Positions 371 through 62,460 of a stretch of DNA of 64,000 nt are shown piece after piece. The translations under genes and the position numbers were made by a program. This stretch comes from Planctomycetales bacterium. Its GTDB lineage: Bacteria; Planctomycetota; Planctomycetia; Isosphaerales; Isosphaeraceae. The notes beneath the pieces are model-generated. The model saw only the letters and a program-made list of their open reading frames with translations. It made no database searches and was not told the DNA's origin. Each line of letters opens with the position of its first letter. The first letter of the stretch is position 1. Location: positions 1 through 64,000 of the forward strand of contig DAIDHB010000117.1 in NCBI GenBank assembly GCA_027452145.1, in the 5' to 3' direction.

Positions 371-3286
371 ATGGCGCGGTGGCTCGAGTCGACGCGGGCA
401 CGACGCAACGCCTTGCTGGTGCTCGCGCTCGTAATGATCGGGATGGCGGCGGGCCGTTGGATCCTCCACACCGTTCGTTCGAAGACGCACACCAGCCCGG
501 CGGGATGGGCCGAGATCGAGGCCCTCGCCCGGGCGAGACGATGGTCGGCGCTCCGTCCGAAGCTCGAGCGGTTCATCGGCGTGCATCCCGAGCACGGCGA
601 ATCGCGGATCCTGCTGGCGGATATCGAAGTTCGGGAAAACCGCCGCGACGCGGCCGCCGAGCTGCTCCGCTCCGTCCGGCCGGACGATCCGAGCTGGCCG
701 CGGGCCCAGATGGTGCTGGGCCGGCTCGCGGTGATGGACCGGAGGGCCGCCGACGCCGAACGGATCTTCCGCGGCGTCGCCGAACGCGACCCCAGGGCGG
801 CCGATCCTCGACGGAACCTGGTCTACCTGCTCGGCCTCCAGATGCGCACGGCCGAGATGCGGGCCGTCCTCTGGGAGCTCTATCGGATCGATGAGGAGCC
901 GCAGACTCTCGCGGATCTCGTGCTGGAGCAGGTGACCGAGCCGGATGTCCGCGGCCTGGGGCGCGAGCTGGAACTGCTCGCCGCCCGCACGCCGGACGAT
1001 CCGCTGCTGCTCCGCGCCTGGGGGATGTGGCTGCTCTATCAGGGCCGCGCCGCCGAGGCCGTGTCGCATCTCCAGGCGGCCGCCTCGGCGCTCGTCAACG
1101 ACCCCGCCGGCCGGTTCGCCCTGGCCGAATGCCTCCTGGTGCTCGGCCGGTCGTTCGACGTCGCCGAGGTCCTCGGCCCGATCCCCGAGCGGCCCGCGGA
1201 CGCCGCGCAGTGGTGGCTGTACCGCGGGCGGATCGAGGAGGCGACCGGGCAGCCGGACATCGCGGTCGCCTCGCTCGAGCGCGCGACGGCGTTGAACCCA
1301 CGGAATCGCGAGGCCCACTTTCGCCTCGGCGAGGCGCTCAACCGGCGCGGTCAATCCAGCCCGGCCCGGCAGCACCTCGACCAGGCCCGGCGGATCGAGG
1401 AAAGCCTGGGCGCCGTACGCCGCGAGCACCGCCGCTTCCGGCGAACCACTCGCCAGCCGGACCCCGAGGAATTCGCCCGGCTGGGCGGACTCTGCGCCGA
1501 CGCCGGCCTCGTCGAGGAGGCGGCCGCCTGGCTCGAGCAGGCGCTCAAACTCGATCCCTCGCGGAAGGACCTGGCGGCCCGGCTGGCGCAGCTCCGCTCG
1601 TCGACCGAGCAACTGCCGATCGCCCTGGCCGATCCCCGCCCCGCAGCGCGAGGGGCCGCTGCGAATCGAGCGGGGGTCGAAACGTCGGCCACGGGATCGA
1701 AGGCGATCGCCGCTCCGCCGTTCCGCGAGGGCGCCGAGGCCGCGGGGATCAGGTACTTCTACGAGAGCGGGGCGAGCGGCGACCGCCTGTTCATCGCCGA
1801 TACCATGGGCGGCGGCGTGGGATTGATCGACTTCGACGGCGACGGCTGGCTGGACGTCTATCTCGTCAACGGATGCCGGCTGCCCGTCGATCCCAGGGAT
1901 CCGCCGCATCCCAACGTCCTGTACCGCAACCAGCGCGACGGGACCTTCCGCGACGTAACGGCGACGGCCGGTGTCGGAGGGAAGGGATACGGAATGGGCT
2001 GCGCGGTGGGCGATTATGACAACGACGGCGACGACGACCTGTTCGTCACCGGATACCGGGGCACGGTGCTCTACCGGAACCGCGGCGACGGGAGCTTCGA
2101 GGACGTCACGGCCCCGGCCGGGGTGTCCAGCGACGCCTGGAGCACCGCGGCGGGTTTCGGCGACCTGGACGGCGACGGCGACCTCGATCTCGTCGTCGTG
2201 ACCTACCTGGACGTCACGCCCGATGACCGGCGGATCTGCCGCGATAACGCGGGCCATCCGATCCATTGCACCCCGTCGGTGTACCAGCCCCAGGCCGATC
2301 TGCTGTTTCGCAACAACGGCGACGGCACCTTCACCGAGGCGGGCCGCGCGGCCGGCTTCGTCGACGCGGGCGGCCGCGGCCTGGGTCTGGCGATCGCGGA
2401 TTTCGACGATGACGGCAAGCTCGACATCTTCGTGGCCAACGACGGGACGCCCAATTTCCTCTACCGGAACAGCGGCGGCTGGCACTTCGAGGAGATCGGG
2501 CTCGAGGCCGGCATCGCCACGAATGGGTCGGGGGACGCGACGGCCAGCATGGGCGTCGTCGCCGAGGATCTCGACGGCGACGGTCGGATCGACCTGTTCA
2601 TCACCAACCTGGTCAACGAGTCGAACACCCTCTTCCGCAACCTGGGCGGGATGCAGTTCGTCGACGCCTCGCTCGGCGCGGGGCTGGATGCTCCCAGCCG
2701 GCCGCGGACGGGCTTCGGCGACACCGCCCTCGACGCCGACAACGACGGACGCCCCGACCTGTTCGTGGCCAACGGGCACGTCGATCATCGGCCCTGGGCC
2801 AACAGCCCGATGGCCCAGCCGCCGCAGTTCTTCTGGGGGCGGGAGCGCGGGCGGTTCGAGCTGGCCGGGCCCTCATCCGACGGCTTCGACCGCCCGGTCG
2901 TGGGCCGGGGAGCCGCCGCCGGCGACCTGAACAACGACGGTCGCGTCGACCTGGTGGTCGTCCATCGCGATGCCCCGACCGCGCTCTGGTGGAACCGAGG
3001 CGAGGGCGGCCACTGGCTCGGGCTACGGCTCCGAGGGACGCGCTCGGGCCGGACGCCGGTCGGAGCCCGCGTGACCTGCCGCGCCGGCGGGCGCACCATC
3101 GTCCGGCGACTGACGAGCGGGACCGGCTACCTGTCGGCCCATGACCCGCGACTCTGGTTCGGCCTTGGTAACTCGGCCGAGGTGGAACGGCTCGAGGTCC
3201 GCTGGCCGTCGGGGGCCATCCAGTCATGGGCCGGCCTGTCCGCCGACCGCATCCTCGTCATCGAGGAGGGGAAGGATCTGAAGTAG
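371..3286 (+). CDS. TPR / FG-GAP / ASPIC-UnbV (CRTAC1-type) membrane-anchored protein
   Basis: A 971-residue protein of unknown substrate, probably displayed on the outer face of a membrane. An N-terminal hydrophobic segment (about residues 12-30) is followed by tetratricopeptide repeats to about residue 410. After a short linker, FG-GAP/VCBS-type repeats run from about 480 to 860 and carry repeated calcium-binding loops such as DFDGDGWLD, DYDNDGDDD, DLDGDGDLD and DADNDGRPD. An ASPIC/UnbV-like domain closes the protein (RLTSGTGYLS, then VRWPSG). FG-GAP beta-propellers usually mediate Ca2+-dependent adhesion or protein contacts; the role here is inferred only at that level. The ATG is preceded by AGGA at a reasonable distance. 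The stop codon TAG is itself the first bases of a REP palindrome. A full-length paralogue lies at 11584-14496. Confidence 0.85.
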   Translation: MARWLESTRARRNALLVLALVMIGMAAGRWILHTVRSKTHTSPAGWAEIEALARARRWSALRPKLERFIGVHPEHGESRILLADIEVRENRRDAAAELLRSVRPDDPSWPRAQMVLGRLAVMDRRAADAERIFRGVAERDPRAADPRRNLVYLLGLQMRTAEMRAVLWELYRIDEEPQTLADLVLEQVTEPDVRGLGRELELLAARTPDDPLLLRAWGMWLLYQGRAAEAVSHLQAAASALVNDPAGRFALAECLLVLGRSFDVAEVLGPIPERPADAAQWWLYRGRIEEATGQPDIAVASLERATALNPRNREAHFRLGEALNRRGQSSPARQHLDQARRIEESLGAVRREHRRFRRTTRQPDPEEFARLGGLCADAGLVEEAAAWLEQALKLDPSRKDLAARLAQLRSSTEQLPIALADPRPAARGAAANRAGVETSATGSKAIAAPPFREGAEAAGIRYFYESGASGDRLFIADTMGGGVGLIDFDGDGWLDVYLVNGCRLPVDPRDPPHPNVLYRNQRDGTFRDVTATAGVGGKGYGMGCAVGDYDNDGDDDLFVTGYRGTVLYRNRGDGSFEDVTAPAGVSSDAWSTAAGFGDLDGDGDLDLVVVTYLDVTPDDRRICRDNAGHPIHCTPSVYQPQADLLFRNNGDGTFTEAGRAAGFVDAGGRGLGLAIADFDDDGKLDIFVANDGTPNFLYRNSGGWHFEEIGLEAGIATNGSGDATASMGVVAEDLDGDGRIDLFITNLVNESNTLFRNLGGMQFVDASLGAGLDAPSRPRTGFGDTALDADNDGRPDLFVANGHVDHRPWANSPMAQPPQFFWGRERGRFELAGPSSDGFDRPVVGRGAAAGDLNNDGRVDLVVVHRDAPTALWWNRGEGGHWLGLRLRGTRSGRTPVGARVTCRAGGRTIVRRLTSGTGYLSAHDPRLWFGLGNSAEVERLEVRWPSGAIQSWAGLSADRILVIEEGKDLK

Positions 3287-3396
3287 GTCGGGCAGTCCTG
3301 CCCGACTCCGGCCCGAATCCGCCCGGGCCGGAGTCGGGCAAGAATGCTCGACCTACTTCGAATCGGTCGGGAGTCGGTCGGGCATTCCTGCCCGAC
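3283..3396. repeat. REP/BIME block 1 (three palindromes)
   Basis: Three copies of a 20-base palindrome are present. A forward copy with leading GTAG lies at 3283-3306, an inverted copy ending in CCTAC at 3333-3356, and a forward copy GTCGGGCATTCCTGCCCGAC at 3377-3396. The asymmetric centre (CATTCCTG or its complement CAGGAATG) defines orientation. The block fills the gap between two convergent genes and its first copy supplies the TAG stop of the gene ending at 3286. It could act as a bidirectional transcription end. Confidence 0.85.
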
Positions 3397-3409: not shown

Positions 3410-4486
3410 TCAATAGGCGTCGGCCGAGACCACCTCGCCACCGTTGCGGGTGGAGAGGTTCTGGTAGACGCCCTGCATCTGGCCGTTGGTATTGTAGACA
3501 AACATGTTGCCCTGGGGGCTCGACGTCCAGGCGGCCGTGATCGCCCGCGGATTCCACGAGTTGATCGAGTTCTTGATGAACTTGACCGACCCGTCGCAGA
3601 AGGCGAAGTTGGCGCCGCCGGGATGCATGCTGGTGGACGTGTCGGCGAAGTTGGACTGGCGGGGTACGATGGTAGCCGCACCGCTGTTGAGGGACTGTCG
3701 GTCGTTCTTGAAAAAGTTGGGCGGGAAGATCGAGCAGAACGTCGTATCGCCGTAATCGCCCGAGGTCCACCAGTTGTACCCGTAGATATCGCCGTTCTGA
3801 GAGGCCATCTCGGAGTGGGCGTGTTCGCCGTAGATGAACGTGTTGCTGGTACCGTCGGTGATGCTGGCGATCCGGACCGGTGTGAAGTTGGCAATCCCGC
3901 CGGCCGGGCCATTACCGTTGTGGGCGAAGATGCCCTTCGACATATTGAGCTGCGGGTCGTTCCACTGGTAGATCAGGCAGCCGAGGTTGCCGGCGTAGCT
4001 GCTGTAGGTCATGGGGATCGGCGAGCAATCCCAGCCGTCGCCCGGCGAGCCGGGCCAGCGAAGGCCGGCGATGATCCCGTCGCTGGGGCACCACAGGACG
4101 CTGAGCCCGAACCCATTCACGGTGCTGTTCGGGTACTCATACGGCATGACGCTGCTATTCCACGCGTTGAAGATGTTGGTCTGCTCGAAGTACTGCGTGG
4201 TCCGGAGAAAATGGCCAGCGTCCTGGCGGACGAGTTGCAGGTTCTGCCAGTTCCGACCCATGGAGTCGCCCATGGGGAACGTGCCGTTGGCGCTCTCGTA
4301 GTTCATGGCGCCCAGGGCGAGCTGCTTGAGGTTGTTGACGCACTGGGCGCGCCGGGCGGCCTCGCGGGCCGCCTGCACGGCCGGCAGCAGCAGGGCGATC
4401 AACACGGCGATGATGGCGATGACGACCAGGAGCTCGATCAGCGTGAAGCCGAATCGAGCGGACCCGTGGTGGGCTCGACTCCTCAT
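3410..4486 (-). CDS. DUF1559 pseudopilin-like protein
   Basis: A 358-residue member of the DUF1559 family, which is hugely expanded in planctomycetes and whose role is still poorly defined. The N-terminus holds a type IV pilin-like signal (GFTLIELLVVIAIIAVLIAL) that a prepilin peptidase would cut before the Phe. The family motif AREAARRAQCVNNLKQLALG follows. The C-terminal family motif is present (HPGGANFAFCDGSVKFIKNS), so the domain looks complete. I chose the ATG at 4486 and not the longer open frame to 4708, because AAGGGA lies 7 nt upstream and the pilin signal begins a few residues in. A small lipoprotein gene lies upstream on the same strand, an arrangement often seen with DUF1559 genes. 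Export and assembly into a surface fibre or the envelope is inferred from family features. Confidence 0.9.
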   Translation of the reverse strand: MRSRAHHGSARFGFTLIELLVVIAIIAVLIALLLPAVQAAREAARRAQCVNNLKQLALGAMNYESANGTFPMGDSMGRNWQNLQLVRQDAGHFLRTTQYFEQTNIFNAWNSSVMPYEYPNSTVNGFGLSVLWCPSDGIIAGLRWPGSPGDGWDCSPIPMTYSSYAGNLGCLIYQWNDPQLNMSKGIFAHNGNGPAGGIANFTPVRIASITDGTSNTFIYGEHAHSEMASQNGDIYGYNWWTSGDYGDTTFCSIFPPNFFKNDRQSLNSGAATIVPRQSNFADTSTSMHPGGANFAFCDGSVKFIKNSINSWNPRAITAAWTSSPQGNMFVYNTNGQMQGVYQNLSTRNGGEVVSADAY

Positions 4487-4693
4487 GTTCCATTCCCTTC
4501 TTGTCGCGGAACGATGAAACGATTCCCGAGAATGACGCGAAACAGTCACCTGGAAGCGCGGCCGCCGGGACGAGATCGCGAGCCGATCCCGAACGGGACC
4601 GCCGGGGCAGATCGGAAAGAAGAACGGATCGAAGTTGGACGAAAACGGCCGGATGACGTCGGTGTCTTCGCGGCTCCGCCGGCTACAGTCGGT

Positions 4694-6842: not shown

Positions 6843-6852
6843 CCTCAAGTCG

Positions 6853-6979
6853 GTCGGGCAGTCTTGCCCGACGCGGACCGGGTCGGACGGGACGGAGTCG
6901 GGCACGAATGCCCGACCTACTTCGGACGGAGTCGGGCAAGAGTGCCCGACCTACGACGGACCGGGCTGGAAAGCCCGAC
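6853..6979. repeat. REP/BIME block 2, upstream of the RAYT gene
   Basis: A forward-type palindrome GTCGGGCAGTCTTGCCCGAC lies at 6853-6872. It is followed by two inverted copies ending in CCTAC (6897-6920 and 6931-6954) and a shorter GGGCTGGAAAGCCC hairpin at about 6963-6976. The block lies directly between the regulator stop and the RAYT start, so it flanks the transposase on its left side. Confidence 0.85.
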
Positions 6980-6985
6980 GGACTC

Positions 6986-7864
6986 ATGGCCATCGAGCGG
7001 CACTACACTCGACACCTGCCCCACGTGGTCCCTGCTGGGTTTCCGATCTTCGTGACGTGGAATCTCAAGGGGGCGATGCCGAAGGCGGCCGTTGAGGGAT
7101 TGCTGCGGGAGCGTGAGCGATTGCGGAATCAAACTCCCCGCGCCGGCGAAACCGACGCCCAGCGGCGGCTCCGCGAGAGCAAGCTGATGTTCGCGGCCGC
7201 CGATCGATTCCTCGACCTGGCCGCCGATGGCCCCATGCACCTGAAGGACCCGCAGTCGGCCGGCATCGTCGAGGACGCCATCCTCTTCGGCGCAGGGGAT
7301 CGGTACGATCTCTTTGCCTGGTGCGTCCTGTCGAATCACGTGCACGTCTTGTTGACACCCCGCCAGGCCCTCGTTGAGATCACCCGAATCCTGAAGGGAT
7401 ATACGGCCTACCGGATCAACCGCCTTCACGATGCGTGCGGCCGTGAGTTCTGGCAGGATGAGTCCTACGACCACTGGTCGCGCGATGAGGACGAAATGTT
7501 CCGGATCATCGACTACATCGAGAAGAACCCCGTGGCCGCCGGTCTTTGTCGAAGCTCCGAGGACTGGCCCTGGTCTTCGGGGCGGTTCCGAAGAAGCTGG
7601 CCCCCCGGCGAAGCCTATAATCCGGTTAAACACGGCCTTCCATCCCGAAAGTCGGTCGGGCATTCCTGCCCGACAAAGTCGGTCGGGCATTCCTGCCCGA
7701 AGCGGGCCCGGATCGGACGGAGTCGGGCAAGAATGCCCGACCTACTTGGGCCCGGACCGGACGGAGTCGGGCAGGAATGCCCGACCGACTTGAGGCCGGG
7801 ACCGGACGGAGTCGGGCAGGAATGCCCGACCTACTTGAGGCCGGAGCCGAGCTGGAAAGTCTGA
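6986..7864 (+). CDS. REP-associated tyrosine transposase (RAYT, Y1/HUH family)
   Basis: A single-strand transposase of the IS200-like Y1 family in its RAYT branch, which in other bacteria is linked to the spread of REP palindromes. The HUH metal-binding motif is visible in WCVLSNHVHVLL (His118, His120), and the expected tyrosine helix follows (LKGYTAYRINR, Tyr139 or Tyr142). The family ending IIDYIEKNPVAAGL...WPWSS is present near residues 174-198. I chose the ATG at 6986 because the IS200-like fold starts a few residues later. The domain ends near residue 210. The remaining ~70 residues are REP palindromes read in frame (KSVGHSCPT, VGQECPT), giving 292 codons in total. REP arrays flank it on both sides. 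Confidence 0.88.
   Translation: MAIERHYTRHLPHVVPAGFPIFVTWNLKGAMPKAAVEGLLRERERLRNQTPRAGETDAQRRLRESKLMFAAADRFLDLAADGPMHLKDPQSAGIVEDAILFGAGDRYDLFAWCVLSNHVHVLLTPRQALVEITRILKGYTAYRINRLHDACGREFWQDESYDHWSRDEDEMFRIIDYIEKNPVAAGLCRSSEDWPWSSGRFRRSWPPGEAYNPVKHGLPSRKSVGHSCPTKSVGHSCPKRARIGRSRARMPDLLGPGPDGVGQECPTDLRPGPDGVGQECPTYLRPEPSWKV
7655..7834. repeat. REP/BIME block 3 (five palindromes), downstream of the RAYT gene
   Basis: Forward copies lie at 7655-7674 and 7682-7700 (GTCGGGCATTCCTGCCCGAC type). Inverted copies follow at 7722-7745, 7766-7785 and 7811-7834 (GTCGGGCAGGAATGCCCGAC type), separated by GGACCGGACGGA-like linkers that also recur. The block overlaps the 3' end of the RAYT reading frame and ends 48 bases before the next gene. 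The forward-then-inverted order is that of a BIME. Confidence 0.9.
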
Positions 7865-7881: not shown

Positions 7882-9750
7882 ATGTTGACGATGGCCTCAC
7901 GAGTACGCGTCTGGTTGATCGGCACCGGCGTCGCGCTCGTCCTTGCCGGTCTGGCCTTCGCCTGGCATGCGCGGCGTCGCGCCTCGGATTCGGCCAGCCT
8001 GGGCGCCGAGGCCGCCTACGCCCACGGTGATTGGACTCGGGCGGCAGACCTGGCTCGGCGGCGATTAAAGGCGGAGCCGAACGACATCGAGGCCCGGCGC
8101 TTGCTGGCCCGCTCGATGGCCCGGCTCGGCCGTGACGCCGAGGCCAATGCCATGTTCGCCAGGCTCGGCACCGAGGCGCTCCGCGCCGAGGACCTCCTGC
8201 TGCTCGGCAAGGGACTCGATCGGGCCGGGCGCAAGGATGAAGCCGGACGGATCTGGGAAAAAGCCCTGCGGCTCGAGCCCGACCACCCCGAGACGCTCGA
8301 ACAGCTCGTGATCCTGGAATCCGCCCGGAACCAGCTCGTCGAGGCCGCCGAGCTGGCCGAACGGCTGGCGCTTCGACCTGGTTGGGAGTTCCGCGGCGAG
8401 CTGGACCTCGCCGCACTTCGCGCCGAGCTCAACGACCCGGCGAGGGCCGCGGCCGAATTGTGCCGCGCACTCGCACGTCCCGAGGCCGCCCGGCTCGATC
8501 CTGCCGCCGACCACCGTTATCGCAACCTGCTCGCCCGGTCACTTCTGCGGACCAGTCGGACCGGCGAGGCCCGTGACGTGCTCCGAAAGCTCCTCGATCG
8601 GGGGTCCGACTCCGAAACGTCCTGGCTGATGAGCCGCGCCGCGCTCCTTGACGGGTCCACCTCCGAGGCGGCCGCCGCGCTCGAGGCGGCCGGATCCTAC
8701 CGCGCCGAGCACCCGCTTGAGGCCGAGCCCGGCCCCTATCTCGGCGAGGCCCGTTGCGTCGACTGCCATGCGAAGGAGGCGCACCTGGTCCGGGCCAGCC
8801 GCCACTCGACGACCCTGGTTCGAGGAACGGGCCTGGAAGGCATCGCCTACCCGTCCGGTCCCATCGCCGACCCCGATGATCCCGCCGTCCGCCACACGTT
8901 CCGGCGGGAGGACGGCCGGATTCGCTTCGAGACGGGGGTCAAGGGCCGGGACGACGTGCTCGCCGCGGTCGTCGATTACGCGTTCGGCTCGCCTGACCGT
9001 TACGTCTCGTTTGTCGGCCGTGATGACCGGGGGCGAGGCTACGTACTGCGGCTTTCCCGGTATCAGTCGGGTCAACGCTCGGGCTGGGTGCGGACGACCG
9101 GACACACCGCCGAGGCCGAAAGCGGCCACAACTTCCTCGGCAAGCCCCTCGACGACCCCGACGGGGTGCAAAAGTGCCTCTTTTGCCACAGCACGAACTT
9201 CCGGGCGGTGCTCGATCAGACCGGGCCCGAGTCCCACGATTCGGCGATCGGCTGCGAGCGATGCCACGGCCCGGGAGCCGTCCACGAGAAGGCGGTCGCC
9301 GCGAAGCTCGCCGACCTCGCGATCATCCGCCCCTCCGAGGCGACGGCTGAGGGGCGCGTGCGCCTCTGCGGCCAGTGCCACAGCTTCCACCAGGCCCTGC
9401 CGTTGCCCAGGACCGACCCCTTCTGGATCCGGTTCCAGGGCACGACCCTCCCCTGGAGCCGCTGCTACACCGAGAGCGAGGGCGCGTTTGACTGCATGAC
9501 CTGCCACAACCCGCACCACGACGCCGACCGATCCGAGGCCCGCTACGATCGTCGATGCCTCGATTGCCATGCCGCTCGTCCGAAGGACGCTCCACCTGGT
9601 CCGACCGGGCCGAAAACCCGCGCGGCCCGCGGCTCGGTCTGCCCGGTGAACCCGACGACCGGCTGCGTCGGCTGCCACATGCCGCCGTTCCGCAGCGAGC
9701 CGCTCCACGCGACCTTTACCGATCACTTCATCCGGGTGCATCCGAAGTAG
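7882..9750 (+). CDS. Membrane-anchored TPR multiheme cytochrome c (seven CxxCH)
   Basis: A 622-residue c-type cytochrome, probably anchored by an N-terminal transmembrane helix (VWLIGTGVALVLAGLAFAW) and facing the periplasm. Tetratricopeptide repeats fill about residues 35-270. The C-terminal half carries seven heme-attachment motifs at about residues 292 (CVDCH), 432 (CLFCH), 458 (CERCH), 496 (CGQCH), 538 (CMTCH), 559 (CLDCH) and 595 (CVGCH), like cytochrome c554/NrfA-like multiheme proteins. It should move electrons, but the donor and acceptor are unknown. The ATG at 7882 is preceded by GGGGA; ATG 7891 is an alternative. The stop codon TAG is the first three bases of a REP palindrome, as in the gene ending at 3286. 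Confidence 0.85.
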   Translation: MLTMASRVRVWLIGTGVALVLAGLAFAWHARRRASDSASLGAEAAYAHGDWTRAADLARRRLKAEPNDIEARRLLARSMARLGRDAEANAMFARLGTEALRAEDLLLLGKGLDRAGRKDEAGRIWEKALRLEPDHPETLEQLVILESARNQLVEAAELAERLALRPGWEFRGELDLAALRAELNDPARAAAELCRALARPEAARLDPAADHRYRNLLARSLLRTSRTGEARDVLRKLLDRGSDSETSWLMSRAALLDGSTSEAAAALEAAGSYRAEHPLEAEPGPYLGEARCVDCHAKEAHLVRASRHSTTLVRGTGLEGIAYPSGPIADPDDPAVRHTFRREDGRIRFETGVKGRDDVLAAVVDYAFGSPDRYVSFVGRDDRGRGYVLRLSRYQSGQRSGWVRTTGHTAEAESGHNFLGKPLDDPDGVQKCLFCHSTNFRAVLDQTGPESHDSAIGCERCHGPGAVHEKAVAAKLADLAIIRPSEATAEGRVRLCGQCHSFHQALPLPRTDPFWIRFQGTTLPWSRCYTESEGAFDCMTCHNPHHDADRSEARYDRRCLDCHAARPKDAPPGPTGPKTRAARGSVCPVNPTTGCVGCHMPPFRSEPLHATFTDHFIRVHPK

Positions 9751-9880
9751 GTCGGGCATTCCTGCCCGACGCGGGTCCGATCCCGCCCGGTCCGCCCGAT
9801 CCCGCGTCGGGCAGGAATGCCCGACCTACTTGAAGACGCCAGTCCGCCGTGGGTAGTTCAGGCAGTGTTGCCCGACGCGG
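9747..9880. repeat. REP/BIME block 4 between convergent genes
   Basis: A forward copy with leading GTAG (9747-9770) and an inverted copy ending in CCTAC (9806-9829) are clear. A decayed third copy (TTCAGGCAGTGTTGCCCGAC) follows at about 9856-9875. The block lies between the cytochrome gene and the oppositely oriented HEAT gene, and its first copy contributes the cytochrome stop codon. Confidence 0.85.
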
Positions 9881-9897: not shown

Positions 9898-11403
9898 TCA
9901 CTCCCTCACCGGGAGTCCATGCCTGGACCTGGGATACCGAACGGGCCGTATCTGCGATCCCTGTTGATCCGCCGGCATTGTCTTGAGCTCCGGGACGAGC
10001 TGTTCCGCCTTCGAGCCGAGCCTCCGCAGCGCCCGGGTGAGCGCAGGCTTCTGCGGCTCGGGCGCCGTCGTCCATGCCCTGGCCAGGACAGCCAGCACAT
10101 GGTCCTCGTCCGGCGTCCCTCGCACGATCTCGGCGAGCGCCTCCGCGATGGTCCCGCGGAGGGCAACGTCTTCCGGGGTCGACTCGAACGTCGACAGCAG
10201 GAGCGGCACGGAGGGCGCGGCGGCACGATTGAGGATGCCGAGGGACCAGGCGGCCTCCGCGAGTTCGTCGAAGTACGCCTCTCTCTCCCTGTCCTTCGCC
10301 CAATGGCCCGGCGAGCCCGACAAGCCGGGGTCCAGTTTCCGCGCCGACTCGCCCGAACGCTTCACGATTTCGCAGAGAAGCTCGACGGCTCCGGGCGGCG
10401 GGGGCGCATCCGGGGTGAGCTCGCCGATCGCCCCCGCCGCCATGCCGAGGATGTTCGGGGCGGTCCCATGATCGCCGGGATGGGGGGAATCGAGCTCCTT
10501 CCGGATCAATTTCAGGATGGCAGGTAGCGCCGGTCGTGCGTCGCGGCCCATGTGGTTGATCGCCGCCGTGCACAGGAGACAAATATCGGTGCGGTCGCTC
10601 GACAATCCCTCGATCAACTGCGGCAGGACCGAGGGCTCGAGTCGGACTTTCCAGAAAACATGCCAGTAGCCATCGCCGGCGCGGCGCGCGCCCGGGCTTT
10701 CGCTCGCGATGCGCCGCAGCGCCACGGGGACGATCAGCTCAGGTCCCTGGCCGTACTCGATCAGCGCGTCGGCCGCCCAGATGCGGATGCGAGCGTCGTC
10801 GTCATCCAGGCACTCGACCAGCCGGGGTGGAGGAGCATCGAACGAACTGCCTCGGGCAATCGCTCTGAGCGATATCGCCGCCTGAAGCCGCAGGTCCGGC
10901 GAGGGGTCGTCGAGGAGGACAGCGAGCGCCTGCTCGGCGGCCCGGAGATCACCAGGAAAGGGCCGAGGCAGGTTGCCGACGACGGAAGCCGCCACGTTCC
11001 GGATCGCCTCTGATTTGTCCTTCATCGCCCGGATGAGGTGCGGAAATACCTGCCGCAGCTCGTCGGGCGTCAGGTCGACCCGGGTCAGTCCGATGACCCT
11101 CGCCCGGTCAGCCTCCTCGCCCTGCTCAATCTCACGGATAACGACCTCGATCGGTTTCCGGGGCAGAATCTGCGCCGACGAGGCCCCCGGATTCCGGCGC
11201 CGGTCCTCAGCGTCAGGGGACCCATCCATGGCCTGGGTGATCCGGTTGAAGAGTGACCAGGCCCGGAAATAGGCTTGCGGTGATCGGTAGATATAGAGGC
11301 CGATCGCGGTCATGATCACCGCCACACTGAGGGCCAGGGCGATCAATGCCACTCGAGTTCGACTGATTCTCTTCTTCTCGCCGCCATCGGGAGCGTTCGA
11401 CAT
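9898..11403 (-). CDS. Membrane-anchored HEAT-repeat protein
   Basis: A 501-residue protein with a transmembrane helix near the N-terminus (VALIALALSVAVIMTAIGLYIY, about residues 18-39). The large C-terminal region is alpha-helical and reads as HEAT repeats (for example PHLIRAMKDKSEAIRNVAAS, LAVLLDDPSPDLRLQAAISL, ECLDDDDARIRIWAADALIE). HEAT arrays usually form protein-protein scaffolds; partner and role are unknown. I chose the ATG at 11403, since GGAGG lies 7 nt upstream and the longer frame to 11541 encodes nothing recognisable. It is the third gene of a leftward set after the DUF5009-like and CRTAC1-type genes, 180 bases from the latter. Confidence 0.75.
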   Translation of the reverse strand: MSNAPDGGEKKRISRTRVALIALALSVAVIMTAIGLYIYRSPQAYFRAWSLFNRITQAMDGSPDAEDRRRNPGASSAQILPRKPIEVVIREIEQGEEADRARVIGLTRVDLTPDELRQVFPHLIRAMKDKSEAIRNVAASVVGNLPRPFPGDLRAAEQALAVLLDDPSPDLRLQAAISLRAIARGSSFDAPPPRLVECLDDDDARIRIWAADALIEYGQGPELIVPVALRRIASESPGARRAGDGYWHVFWKVRLEPSVLPQLIEGLSSDRTDICLLCTAAINHMGRDARPALPAILKLIRKELDSPHPGDHGTAPNILGMAAGAIGELTPDAPPPPGAVELLCEIVKRSGESARKLDPGLSGSPGHWAKDREREAYFDELAEAAWSLGILNRAAAPSVPLLLSTFESTPEDVALRGTIAEALAEIVRGTPDEDHVLAVLARAWTTAPEPQKPALTRALRRLGSKAEQLVPELKTMPADQQGSQIRPVRYPRSRHGLPVRE

Positions 11404-11583
11404 CACATTGCCTCCGCAACCGTGGATGTGTCTACGGCGATTCTCGTGTCGTAAGGCTACCATCCCGGACATGACCCGACAATCAACATCCATGGAAAGC
11501 GCTGGCGTGTGGACAGGAGCTCGCCCCACGCCCTGACGCACGATACCGGGCTCCCGGCAGTCGTCGCCTCGCGAAGCCGATCC

Positions 11584-57804: not shown

Positions 57805-57862
57805 GTCAGGCTGAGAGCCTGACCTACTGCGGAGGCAGGGTCGGGCTGAAAGCCTGACCTAC
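57805..57862. repeat. REP block 5 (diverged palindromes)
   Basis: Two inverted copies ending in CCTAC: GTCAGGCTGAGAGCCTGACC (57805-57824) and GTCGGGCTGAAAGCCTGACC (57840-57859), each followed by TAC. They are shorter in the centre than the other copies. Read on the minus strand, the second is translated as the end of the WD40 protein and the first supplies its TAG stop codon. Confidence 0.8.
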
Positions 57863-59350
57863 CTGGGACTGGACACGCGAGACGTCCCAGATCCTGATCA
57901 TCCCGTCCGCCCCGCCGGAGACCAGCACGGGAAGGTCCCTCGGTGCGGCGGTGGTTACTCGGCCTTCGTGGGCCCTCCATCGTGTCAGCTCGTTGCCGGT
58001 CTGGGCGTCGATCGCGACGATGTCGCCGTGGAGCGTCGGCACGTACAGGACCCTCCCGGTGGGATCGAAGCTCGGGTCCACTGAGCCACGCCAGTAGCCG
58101 TCTTCACGGCTTGACTCAACGTCGTTCCTGTCATCGGCCAGGTCGATGAGGTATCGCAGGCGGAACGACGGGAACTCGTAGACGCAAAGATTCCATTTCT
58201 CATGGCTCCAGGCGATTCCGAGCAGGACGAGCGTATCGCCCGACGGGCTGAGACGGGCCCCGAAGACGCCGACGATGTGGGGGTCCAGCCAGGAGCGCTC
58301 CTCGCCGTTCTTCCGGTTCCGGATCGATTGTGGGACCAGGAAGTCACCGGATTCCTCCCGACCGGATTCGTCGATGAAGCGGTAGAGACTCACGGTGTCC
58401 GCGTCGTAGCCCCCGATCGAGAGGAATCGTTCCCCGTCGGGGTGCGCGACGAGCCGGCCAACCCTGCGCAACGAGCCGACCGAGCGGCCGGTCGCGACGT
58501 CGATGATTTCTGTCCTTTCCTCCATCGAGCGATCGGCCGCGATGAGCCGGCCCGAGGGGGAGAACAGGGTCGAGCTGAAGCCCCGCTGGTCGGCCGAGAC
58601 CTCCAGGTCATCGTGAGGCACACCAGAGAACCTGGTCGGACCGGAAGCCGCGGCCAGCGGCCGGATCGGGGCGCCGTCCCGGATGTCCACCAGCTCCAGC
58701 GGCCTGCCGATCCCGGCCAGGGCCATCGTCCGGCCGTCGGGATGGAACGCGACGTCGCCGATGCAACCCACCGTGATCCATGGAATCTCGCGCTCGGCGG
58801 ACCTGAGGATGTACCTCGCGTCGGCGGGGCGATGGGTCCCATAACGGGCGACTTCCTCGATCGCGACGGAATCCCAGCTCCAGAGGCAGCACTCATCGCG
58901 GTCTCTTGAGAAACTGACGACCCGAAGGCCGCCCGGTTGTACCACGAGCTTTCCAACCCGGGACCCCTGCCGGACCTGGCCGATCGGCCGGATGGTTTGG
59001 GTCGGTCGGCTGGAGGGTTCGATGACCGCGATCGGCTCGGCGGAACCCTCTTCGATGTCGTCGACGTCGTCGGGGTCCGGATGCAGGAATGCGAAGTCGG
59101 CGAATTCCTCGGGCCAGTCCTCGCGGGGCGGCAGGACGACCGCCACCTCGCTCCCGGGCTTGTATCGATCCTCGATGATGACCGCGTCGGGATGGCGCCG
59201 GAGGCGTTCGAACTCCTCGTCGCTGACGGTGCCGAAGTTGGCCTGGACCTGACCGGTGACCCAGTCGCCGGCCGGATGCTTCGTCAGGATCACGTCCATC
59301 ACGGCCTGGCCGATCGCATGCCCCCGACGGCAGAGGAAATAGGTCGTCAT
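57824..59350 (-). CDS. WD40-repeat protein with unusual N-terminus
   Basis: A 508-residue protein. Residues 1-100 form an unassigned acidic domain (FLCRRGHAIGQAVMDVILTK, then PPREDWPEEFADFAFLHPDP). The rest is a WD40 beta-propeller with degenerate repeats such as DVAFHPDGRTMALAGIGRPL, TLFSPSGRLIAADRSME and VSGGADGMIRIWDVS. A scaffold role is likely. The last 13 residues (VGQAFSPTLPPQ region) are encoded by a REP palindrome and the stop codon is the TAG of the next palindrome, so the original protein end has been replaced. It starts 81 bases after the TPR gene and is probably cotranscribed with it. Confidence 0.75.
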   Translation of the reverse strand: MTTYFLCRRGHAIGQAVMDVILTKHPAGDWVTGQVQANFGTVSDEEFERLRRHPDAVIIEDRYKPGSEVAVVLPPREDWPEEFADFAFLHPDPDDVDDIEEGSAEPIAVIEPSSRPTQTIRPIGQVRQGSRVGKLVVQPGGLRVVSFSRDRDECCLWSWDSVAIEEVARYGTHRPADARYILRSAEREIPWITVGCIGDVAFHPDGRTMALAGIGRPLELVDIRDGAPIRPLAAASGPTRFSGVPHDDLEVSADQRGFSSTLFSPSGRLIAADRSMEERTEIIDVATGRSVGSLRRVGRLVAHPDGERFLSIGGYDADTVSLYRFIDESGREESGDFLVPQSIRNRKNGEERSWLDPHIVGVFGARLSPSGDTLVLLGIAWSHEKWNLCVYEFPSFRLRYLIDLADDRNDVESSREDGYWRGSVDPSFDPTGRVLYVPTLHGDIVAIDAQTGNELTRWRAHEGRVTTAAPRDLPVLVSGGADGMIRIWDVSRVQSQVGQAFSPTLPPQ

Positions 59351-61045: not shown

Positions 61046-61195
61046 GGCAGGCTTTCCAGCCCGACGGTCGAACCTCGTCGAGCTGGAAAGCCTGCCTACT
61101 TTTATACCGGCGGAATCAACCTGTATCAGCCAGACCAGGGCGACGGCCGATCGGCCCGACGTGGCATGCGCGTCGGGCAAGAATGCCCGACCTAC
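61046..61195. repeat. REP block 6
   Basis: A diverged pair, GGCAGGCTTTCCAGCCCGAC (61047-61066) and AGCTGGAAAGCCTGCC (61081-61096), faces each other. An intact inverted copy GTCGGGCAAGAATGCCCGAC followed by CTAC lies at 61172-61195. The block occupies the 326-base gap after the fabF gene (leftward) and before the TPR gene. I see nothing else in this gap. Confidence 0.75.
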
Positions 61196-61206
61196 TTCAG
61201 AATCGA

Positions 61207-62460
61207 TCAGCGCGACGGCTGATAGCGGCGGATGAGGAGGCTGGCGTTGTGGCCGCCGAAGCCGAAGCTGTTGGACATCACCGTGTCGACGCGGGCCTCG
61301 CGGGCGACATTCGGGATGTAGTCCAGGTCGCAGCCCTCGCCGGGGTTGTCCAGGTTGATGGTCGGCGGCAGGACGCCGTTGTGGATCGCCAGGGCCGAGG
61401 CGATCAGCTCGACGCCGCCGGAGGCGCCCAGCAGGTGCCCCAGCTCGCTCTTGGTGCTGGAGATCTGGAGCTTCGCCGCATGCGGGCCGAAGACGTCCTT
61501 CATCGCGCGGGTCTCGGCCAGGTCGCCGAGCGGCGTGCTGGTGCCGTGCGCGTTGATGTACTGGACGGCCTCGGCCCCGATGCCGGCGTCGGAGAGGCAC
61601 CGCCGCATCGAGCGGGCGGCGCCGCGGCCCTGCTCATCCGGGGCGGTGATGTGCCAGCCGTCGGCCGACATGCCGTAACCGATCAATTCGGCGTAGATCC
61701 GCGCGCCGCGCTGGAGCGCGACCTCCTCGGCCTCGAGGATCAGGATGCCGGCACCCTCGGCCAGGATGAAGCCATCCCGGTCGCGGTCGAACGGCCGGCA
61801 GGCGCGGGTCGGGTCATCGTTGAGGGTGGAGAGCGCCCGCATCGACGCGAATCCGCCCAGTCCCATGTGGGTGATCGCGGCCTCGCTGCCGCCGGAGATC
61901 ATCACGTCGGCCCAGCCGGCCTGGATGAGTTTCAGCGCGTCGCCGATCGCGTTGGCCGCCGAGGCGCACGCGGTGGCGACCGCCGAGCACGGGCCCTGGA
62001 GTCCCCACTTGATCGAGACCTGGCCGCTGGCGGCATTGACCATCAGCTTGGGGATGGTGAAGGGGCTGATCCGCGACGGGCCCTTTTCCATCATGACCGT
62101 GTGCTGGGCCTCGAACTCATTCAGGCCGCCGATGCCCGAGCCGATCATCACGCCGCACTGCTCCGGCGGGAGCTTCGCGAAGTCGATGCCCGAATCGGCG
62201 ACGGCCGAGGTGGCCGCGGCGAGGGCGAACTGGGCGAACCGGTCGAGGTGCCGCGCCTCCTTGACGCCGAAGCGGGCGGCGGGGTCCCAGTCGCGGACCT
62301 GCCCGCCGAACTTCACCTTGAACTCGGTCGTGTCGAACAGCGTCAGCGGACCGATTCCGCTCCGGCCCTCGCAGAGGGCCGACCAGAACTGGTCCAGGCT
62401 TTCGCCCAGCGACGTGACCACCCCCATCCCGGTGATGACGACGCGGCGTGGATGTCCCAT
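61207..62460 (-). CDS. fabF: 3-oxoacyl-[acyl-carrier-protein] synthase II
   Basis: A 417-residue condensing enzyme that adds malonyl-ACP to acyl-ACP in fatty acid elongation. The catalytic triad is readable: Cys in ATACASAANAIGDAL, His in YINAHGTSTPLGD, His in STKSELGHLLGASG. The length and the opening RRVVITGMGVVTSLGESLD fit FabF. It lies 200 bases downstream of acpP on the same strand; that gap contains a (GATCC)4 run at 62630-62649. Confidence 0.95.
   Translation of the reverse strand: MGHPRRVVITGMGVVTSLGESLDQFWSALCEGRSGIGPLTLFDTTEFKVKFGGQVRDWDPAARFGVKEARHLDRFAQFALAAATSAVADSGIDFAKLPPEQCGVMIGSGIGGLNEFEAQHTVMMEKGPSRISPFTIPKLMVNAASGQVSIKWGLQGPCSAVATACASAANAIGDALKLIQAGWADVMISGGSEAAITHMGLGGFASMRALSTLNDDPTRACRPFDRDRDGFILAEGAGILILEAEEVALQRGARIYAELIGYGMSADGWHITAPDEQGRGAARSMRRCLSDAGIGAEAVQYINAHGTSTPLGDLAETRAMKDVFGPHAAKLQISSTKSELGHLLGASGGVELIASALAIHNGVLPPTINLDNPGEGCDLDYIPNVAREARVDTVMSNSFGFGGHNASLLIRRYQPSR

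Follow-up and report, generated by a model that had tools for sequence, protein, structure and literature searches.

TnpAREP enzymes recognize the REP hairpin via its foot and its loop, cleave DNA with formation of a tyrosine link, and carry out strand transfer (PMC8266576, PMC6006769). In the E. coli TnpAREP the region comprising W94, Q95, E100, H101 and R104 contacts the GTAG guide, and these guide-contacting residues, W-Q and E/D-H..R, distinguish RAYTs from the IS200 transposases (PMC6006769, PMC8266576). One subclass of the TnpAY1 enzymes, subclass 2.7, is defined by the motifs [ND]HVH, WQ and YI[LR][NQ]NP and has long canonical REPs (PMC6006769). For the Proteobacteria, the idea that RAYT and REP co-evolve has been put forward and tested (PMC8266576, PMC6006769). 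Di Nocera et al. (2013) described GTAG REPs together with flanked tyrosine transposases also for Planctomycetes, naming R. baltica, and they reported repeats that overlap the transposase ends as well as GTGG feet in O. terrae (PMC3733652). A first-pass annotation of the locus presented here had assumed that such systems are little described in planctomycetes, which was therefore overstated.

The DNA analysed is a stretch of 64,000 nucleotides, called the window in the following, from a Planctomycetales bacterium of the family Isosphaeraceae (assembly GCA_027452145.1, contig DAIDHB010000117.1). It contains what is very probably a REPtron, that is, a resident single-copy RAYT (TnpAREP) gene surrounded by copies of the GTAG-tagged REP that is cognate to it. 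The features are:

3283 to 3396, both strands not distinguished: REP block of three copies, directly past the 3'-end of a DUF1559 gene (3410-4630, minus strand)
6849 to 6872, plus strand: REP, foot GTCG, loop GTCT
6897 to 6920, minus strand: REP, foot GTAG, loop TTCG
6931 to 6954, minus strand: REP, foot GTAG, loop CTCT
6962 to 6977, minus strand: decayed REP CGGGCTTTCCAGCCCG, 8 bases ahead of the RAYT start codon
6986 to 7864, plus strand: RAYT gene (TnpAREP-like Y1/HUH endonuclease), conserved over 6986-7645 (220 aa), followed by a tail of about 70 aa that is encoded by REPs, stop codon 7862-7864
7337 to 7345, plus strand: HUH motif His118-Val-His120, H118 and H120 invariant in 37 homologues
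7451 to 7483, plus strand: Trp156-Gln157...Asp162-His163...Arg166, by alignment to 4er8 the counterpart of the E. coli TnpAREP region that contacts the GTAG guide
7514 to 7516, plus strand: codon of the catalytic Tyr177, a residue kept almost without exception among 37 homologues and replaced by Asp in one of the two copies of G014
7651 to 7674, plus strand: REP, foot GTCG, within the read-through reading frame of the RAYT
7678 to 7701, plus strand: REP, foot GTCG, last stem base mutated
7722 to 7745, minus strand: REP, foot GTAG, loop TTCT
7766 to 7789, minus strand: REP, foot GTCG, loop TTCC
7811 to 7834, minus strand: REP, foot GTAG, loop TTCC
9747 to 9876, both strands not distinguished: REP block of two full copies and one decayed copy, flanked by the convergent cytochrome gene (7882-9750) and by ORF 9898-11541
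57805 to 57862, minus strand: REPs of a sister family, GTAG-GTCAGGC...GCCYGAC, in two copies at the 3'-end of a WD40-like gene
61172 to 61195, minus strand: single REP, directly past the 3'-end of a beta-ketoacyl synthase gene (61207-62460, minus strand)

The palindrome GTCGGGCAnnnnTGCCCGAC starts at positions 6853, 6897 and 6931 upstream of the RAYT gene and at 7655, 7682, 7722, 7766 and 7811 downstream of it; the copy at 7682 has one mismatch, its last base being A and not C. When up to three mismatches were allowed, 15 matches to GTCGGGCAnnnnTGCCCGAC were found in the window compared to 1.35 expected, and none of 100 shuffled sequences reached 15. For the palindrome with a GTAG foot 10 matches were found, while shuffling yielded an expectation of 0.00. 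The blocks of three and five palindromes that the first-pass annotation had placed upstream and downstream of the gene were thereby verified, with the decayed fourth copy at 6962-6977 as an addition to the upstream block. Its description of forward and inverted copies mixed in each block, similar to BIMEs, agrees with the strands of the REPs listed above. It had furthermore counted at least four other blocks in the window. Three of them were recovered (3283-3396, 9747-9876 and 61172-61195), but the fourth (57805-57862) exists only if the sister family is counted. The gene had been regarded as lying between the two blocks, which is true for its conserved part, whereas the open reading frame continues through the 3'-block to 7864, resulting in a read-through form of 292 aa. 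The reason is that the foot of the first 3'-REP reads AAG-TCG; with the consensus AAG-TAG the frame would be closed there by a stop codon. The additional C-terminal tail could impair the protein.

The two motifs that had been noted for the protein could be localized: NHVHVLL comprises residues 117-123, and the tyrosine helix is IIDYIEKNP with Tyr177. W156 and R166 are invariant among the 37 aligned homologues, and the residues W156, Q157, D162, H163 and R166 align with W94, Q95, E100, H101 and R104 of 4er8. The protein scored above the cut-off of the Y1_Tnp profile. Its best NCBIfam model was REP_Tyr_transpos, with 75.7-76.1 bits and thus below the equivalog cut-off of 80 bits, and the same model was matched by 37 of the 37 aligned homologues. 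In a phmmer search against solved structures the best match was 4er8, the E. coli TnpAREP (E=1.3e-6). An AlphaFold model, built from the 37 homologues, had a mean pLDDT of 89.8, and a Foldseek search of the PDB with this model ranked TnpAREP bound to REP (4er8) first (E=1.8e-7, TM 0.69 by target), with ISDra2 (about 5e-4) and IS608 behind it. The gene is present in a single copy in its own genome (G000; 10.9 Mb, 556 contigs), where its next relative is 28% identical, and dN/dS was about 0.2 in comparisons with two relatives in the genome G014.

Genome-wide statistics for G000 are based on counts of patterns and on sampled loci. The first-pass annotation had proposed a genome-wide count, which yielded 232 exact copies of the palindrome and not a single copy of the reversed control pattern. 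The REP unit is AAGTAG-GTCGGGCA-NTCN-TGCCCGAC, and written out as a single strand it reads AAGTAGGTCGGGCATTCCTGCCCGAC. For a closer view, 67 distinct copies were oriented by their pyrimidine-rich loop. All 67 have GTCGGGCA-NTCN-TGCCCGAC in common, T and C of the loop are conserved at 99%, and the 5'-foot is GTAG in 57 and GTCG in 7 copies, usually preceded by AA. No foot tetranucleotide was found on the 3'-side of the stem in these 67 copies. Because the foot is one-sided, the palindromes are canonical GTAG REPs. In G000 there are 75 pairs of REPs that are at most 35 bases apart; many of them share an 11-nt spacer (near GCTCAGGCCCC) with the feet pointing outward, and the paired REPs fold as DNA into one long hairpin. 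These inverted pairs with the 11-nt spacer are REPINs. The REP pairs that adjoin the RAYT gene in the window have spacers other than this common one. A sister REP family, GTAGGTCAGGC with the stem GTCAGGCT, has 88 copies in G000 and 176 copies in the genome G016, and no RAYT was found beside those of its loci in G000 that were examined.

The similarity to the E. coli TnpAREP/REPtron (4er8; RAYT group 2, subclass 2.2) is extensive and includes the HUH-Y1 core, the W-Q and E/D-H..R region, flanking GTAG REPs in both orientations, a single resident gene and the BIME/REPIN pairing. In contrast to the E. coli REPs, the stem of the window REP is a perfect 8 bp helix devoid of a bulge, and in contrast to the E. 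coli enzyme the window RAYT has Asp at the position of E100, a longer helical stretch separating the first strand from the core helix that follows, and a C-terminal tail that is REP-encoded. The perfect palindrome, the GTAG foot, the fixed loop T, the Asp at E. coli position 100 and the copy number in the hundreds are shared with RAYT group 3/subclass 2.5 of Pseudomonas, Stenotrophomonas and Marinomonas (PMC8266576). However, that group has DH[LF]H, while the window RAYT has NHVH and is a longer protein. In a comparison by published motifs its signature more closely resembles that of the small and scattered subclass 2.7 ([ND]HVH, WQ); NHVH and WQ are present, and YIEKNP differs from the motif of that subclass. 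With the REPtrons of Rhodopirellula baltica and the verrucomicrobium O. terrae (PMC3733652) the locus shares GTAG palindromes in the PVC group, flanked transposases and repeats that overlap gene ends. It differs from that case in the family, Isosphaeraceae, and the likeness refers to tag and gene layout. The joint comparison of RAYT and REP and the feet other than GTRG, which are both described below, go beyond that report. The REP pairs resemble the REPINs of Pseudomonas fluorescens (Bertels and Rainey, 2011, PMC3116915), which are likewise pairs of inverted REPs with a constant short spacing, are kept as a unit and form a long hairpin; the sequence is another one, and mobility is deduced here from comparison and not from population sequencing. 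Taken on its own, the window system is an ordinary and well-formed further case of the known RAYT/REP kind.

The exact palindrome was found in three of 45 genomes of the family, which all belong to one genus: G000 (232 copies), G016 (52 copies) and G019 (5 copies). The remaining 42 genomes have 0 copies. The first-pass annotation had proposed to test whether the repeats occur only together with this RAYT clade. The outcome was mixed: 42 family genomes lack the exact palindrome, and in G016 and G019 the best listed matches to the RAYT have at most about 31-34% identity, none of them close, in incomplete assemblies of more than 1,100 contigs. Both are fragmented MAGs, with a completeness of 83% (G016) and 77% (G019), and assemblies of this type can easily miss a RAYT gene that has repeats on both sides. 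The closest RAYTs were found in G014, which belongs to another genus (67% and 62% identical), and at the locus L134 (54%). Both G014 genes are flanked by GTAG-GTCAGGC palindromes, of which this genome holds 281, so that G014 has close RAYTs and yet a REP that differs by one letter from the window type. The L134 gene is adjoined by GTCAGGC and GTCGGGC types; the full GTAG foot is present in one copy, and GTAC or GTGG in others.

In one of the two G014 paralogues (L054, G014:C230) the catalytic Tyr is replaced by Asp, the Gln of W-Q by Pro, and Asn-His by Ser-His. Judged from these replacements it is probably a dead copy, which is still flanked by REPs, and the 3'-REP contains its stop codon.

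At the RAYT locus a XylR-like regulator is conserved in G014 and in G016-G019, and neither a RAYT nor a REP was found beside it in these genomes within up to about 1.5 kb. A clean empty site in relatives was rejected, because the right-hand side of the locus is not conserved. Outside of the family, among the genomes drawn from the phylum, the tagged form GTAGGTCGGGC..GCCCGAC is numerous only in G171, a member of a distant family, with 24 copies that mostly have the loop TTCCA. No RAYT match was obtained in G171 at E <= 1e-12, and the REP regions fetched (G171:C1, L229-L231) contain no HUH motif. Two REPs 858 bases apart in this genome were considered as RAYT flanks and were rejected because a pilin-like region lies between them. 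The G171 REPs may be due to convergence, transfer or a divergent RAYT.

After the rule that a genome has the REP if and only if it has the RAYT had failed to come out clean, it was tested whether the two vary together. Of about 44 RAYT loci in planctomycetes, nearly every one is accompanied by foot-tagged hairpins of its own. A RAYT tree, which had also been suggested in the first pass, was built from 39 planctomycete RAYTs. With foot labels assigned by eye to the classes GTAG, GTGG, GGAG, GTGA and GGAC, the foot class changes 9 times on this tree versus a mean of 19.2 changes after shuffling, and none of 200 shuffles was as low. The window RAYT falls into a fully supported clade of four, all of which have GTCRGGC stems. 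Other hairpins belong to the RAYTs of G018 (GGGAGC-GCGGGCG) and G012 (GGGAGC-ACGGGCG), with few genomic copies each, and of G038 (GGGACC-GCGGGCG), with 80 genomic copies, and stems tagged with GTGG or GTGA were found beside further distant planctomycete RAYTs. These sequence comparisons are good evidence that RAYT and REP co-evolved in Planctomycetota.

Could the REPs belong to another RAYT, unseen or lost, while the window gene is a resident homologue that REPs happened to flank? The two MAGs of the same genus that have the REP without a RAYT of the window type would fit this explanation, as would the second REP family in G000 with no RAYT beside it and the four REP blocks within 6.6 kb, which reveal that the region is rich in REPs in general. 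Against it, the chance that both flanks of one of eight Y1 genes are hit was roughly estimated to be about 5e-5, a value that assumes about 140 evenly spread clusters and is thus an underestimate in view of the local richness. In addition, the RAYTs of G014 and L134 are flanked alike by near-identical palindromes, the foot class follows the RAYT tree, and no such repeats flank the other Y1 genes of G000 that were examined. This explanation was thus regarded as improbable, and the assignment of the REPs to the window RAYT was retained.

The genomic positions of the REPs bear on a second explanation. According to heuristic gene calls, 24 of 34 REP clusters lie between two called genes, which are in tandem in 12, convergent in 9 and divergent in 3 cases; 6 clusters are inside an ORF call and 4 are near contig ends. 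Most REPs are thus located behind genes, between tandem or convergent ones, they form strong hairpins, and in several cases the foot is the stop codon of the preceding gene. The palindromes might therefore be terminators or hairpins of mRNA 3'-ends that were multiplied by host recombination, with the RAYT being irrelevant for their spread. Yet a terminator needs neither a one-sided, unpaired GTAG foot nor a fixed loop, the abundance is restricted to a lineage, and foot and stem vary together with the RAYT, so that this explanation is very unlikely. By analogy to the E. coli REPs, a role at the RNA level can coexist with RAYT-driven spread.

Least probable of all is an ordinary IS200/IS605 element with subterminal hairpins that are palindromic by chance and solo ends scattered in the genome: the HUH/Y1 fold is common to both, hairpins are present near both ends, and the protein has weak matches to IS200/IS605 transposases, but the copy number of one, with no further copies of gene plus ends, refutes the standard IS reading, hundreds of hairpins occur without the gene and also as inverted pairs with a fixed spacer, the W-Q..D-H..R motif is present, and the best match is 4er8. 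Taken together, the sequence family, the predicted fold, the REP anatomy, the REPIN pairing and the joint change across relatives support the conclusion that the window protein is a RAYT with its REPs.

For the REPtron a mode of action can be proposed by analogy to the studied TnpAREP enzymes. A REP that becomes single-stranded, e.g., on the lagging-strand template, would fold into a hairpin, which the RAYT would grip via the GTAG foot and the loop. The DNA would then be cut beside the repeat by Tyr177, with a tyrosine-DNA link and a metal held by His118/His120, and the strands would subsequently be rejoined. In this way REPs and REPINs might slowly be copied to other places, for the most part past the ends of genes, and the RAYT gene itself would be immobile. 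Binding and cleavage of the REP by the window RAYT are what we infer from these enzymes, and the joint change of RAYT and REP is no proof of cleavage.

To follow the fate of single REPs between species, eight orthologous sites of G000 and G016 were compared, a small sample that was partly picked via matches. At three sites (L001, L163, L007) the GTCGGGC type is present in both genomes. At three others (L008, L166, L171) G000 has the GTCGGGCA type while G016 has the GTCAGGC type; both arms are changed, and the foot and the flanks are kept (L008 1501-1550, L171 1501-1519 and L166 1501-1550 versus L215, L076 and L218 of G016). Some decay was observed at L166. No recognizable REP was present at the G016 sites orthologous to L003 and L164, and the REP of L001 is missing in G017, G018 and G019. 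These comparisons suggest gain or loss of REP sites from one species to another. They also suggest that the REP type can switch in place, which could occur by compensatory mutation or by conversion.

It is tempting to speculate that the planctomycete RAYTs have diversified their guide tetranucleotide (GTAG, GTGG, GTGA, GGAG, GGAC) together with the stem and would thus represent a natural specificity series, and that, between species, a sister type may overwrite REPs in place, so that both arms and the loop differ and foot and flanks are kept; we consider this proposal, taken as a whole, to have somewhat less than an even chance of being correct. The feet GTGA, GGAG and GGAC go beyond the GT[AG]G canon of the earlier studies (PMC3733652, PMC8266576, PMC6006769); they are the freshest part of the results and merit a proper study. 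The locus adds to the Isosphaeraceae a complete RAYT/REP system that comprises hundreds of repeats, and about 40 natural pairs of enzyme and substrate, some with feet beyond GTRG, could be used to test how a guide is read by domesticated transposases and for what reason these are retained by their hosts.

Several residues were noted in this context. In the RAYTs L110, L112, L114 and L116, which form one clade, W-M replaces W-Q, and all four have the foot GTGA and not GTAG or GTGG. The RAYTs of one clade with GGAG or GGAC feet have a common His after the R-D-E motif, and L129, which has a GGAG foot, is devoid of it. A guide code of one residue is not claimed, because the exchange of Gln157 to Met (four RAYTs with GTGA foot) and the His are each confined to a single clade, and L129 is an exception.

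Overlaps of REPs with gene ends were also observed. The stop codon TAG of the multiheme cytochrome gene at 9748-9750 is the TAG of a REP foot, and the TAG of the GTAG foot is apparently the in-frame stop codon of the preceding gene also at the sampled G000 sites L002, L010 and L182. The WD40-like gene (57824-59350, minus strand) ends with the REP-encoded peptide SQVGQAFSPTLPPQ, and similar peptides, VGHSCPT/VGQECPT, are encoded by several spurious ORFs over REPs of the window.
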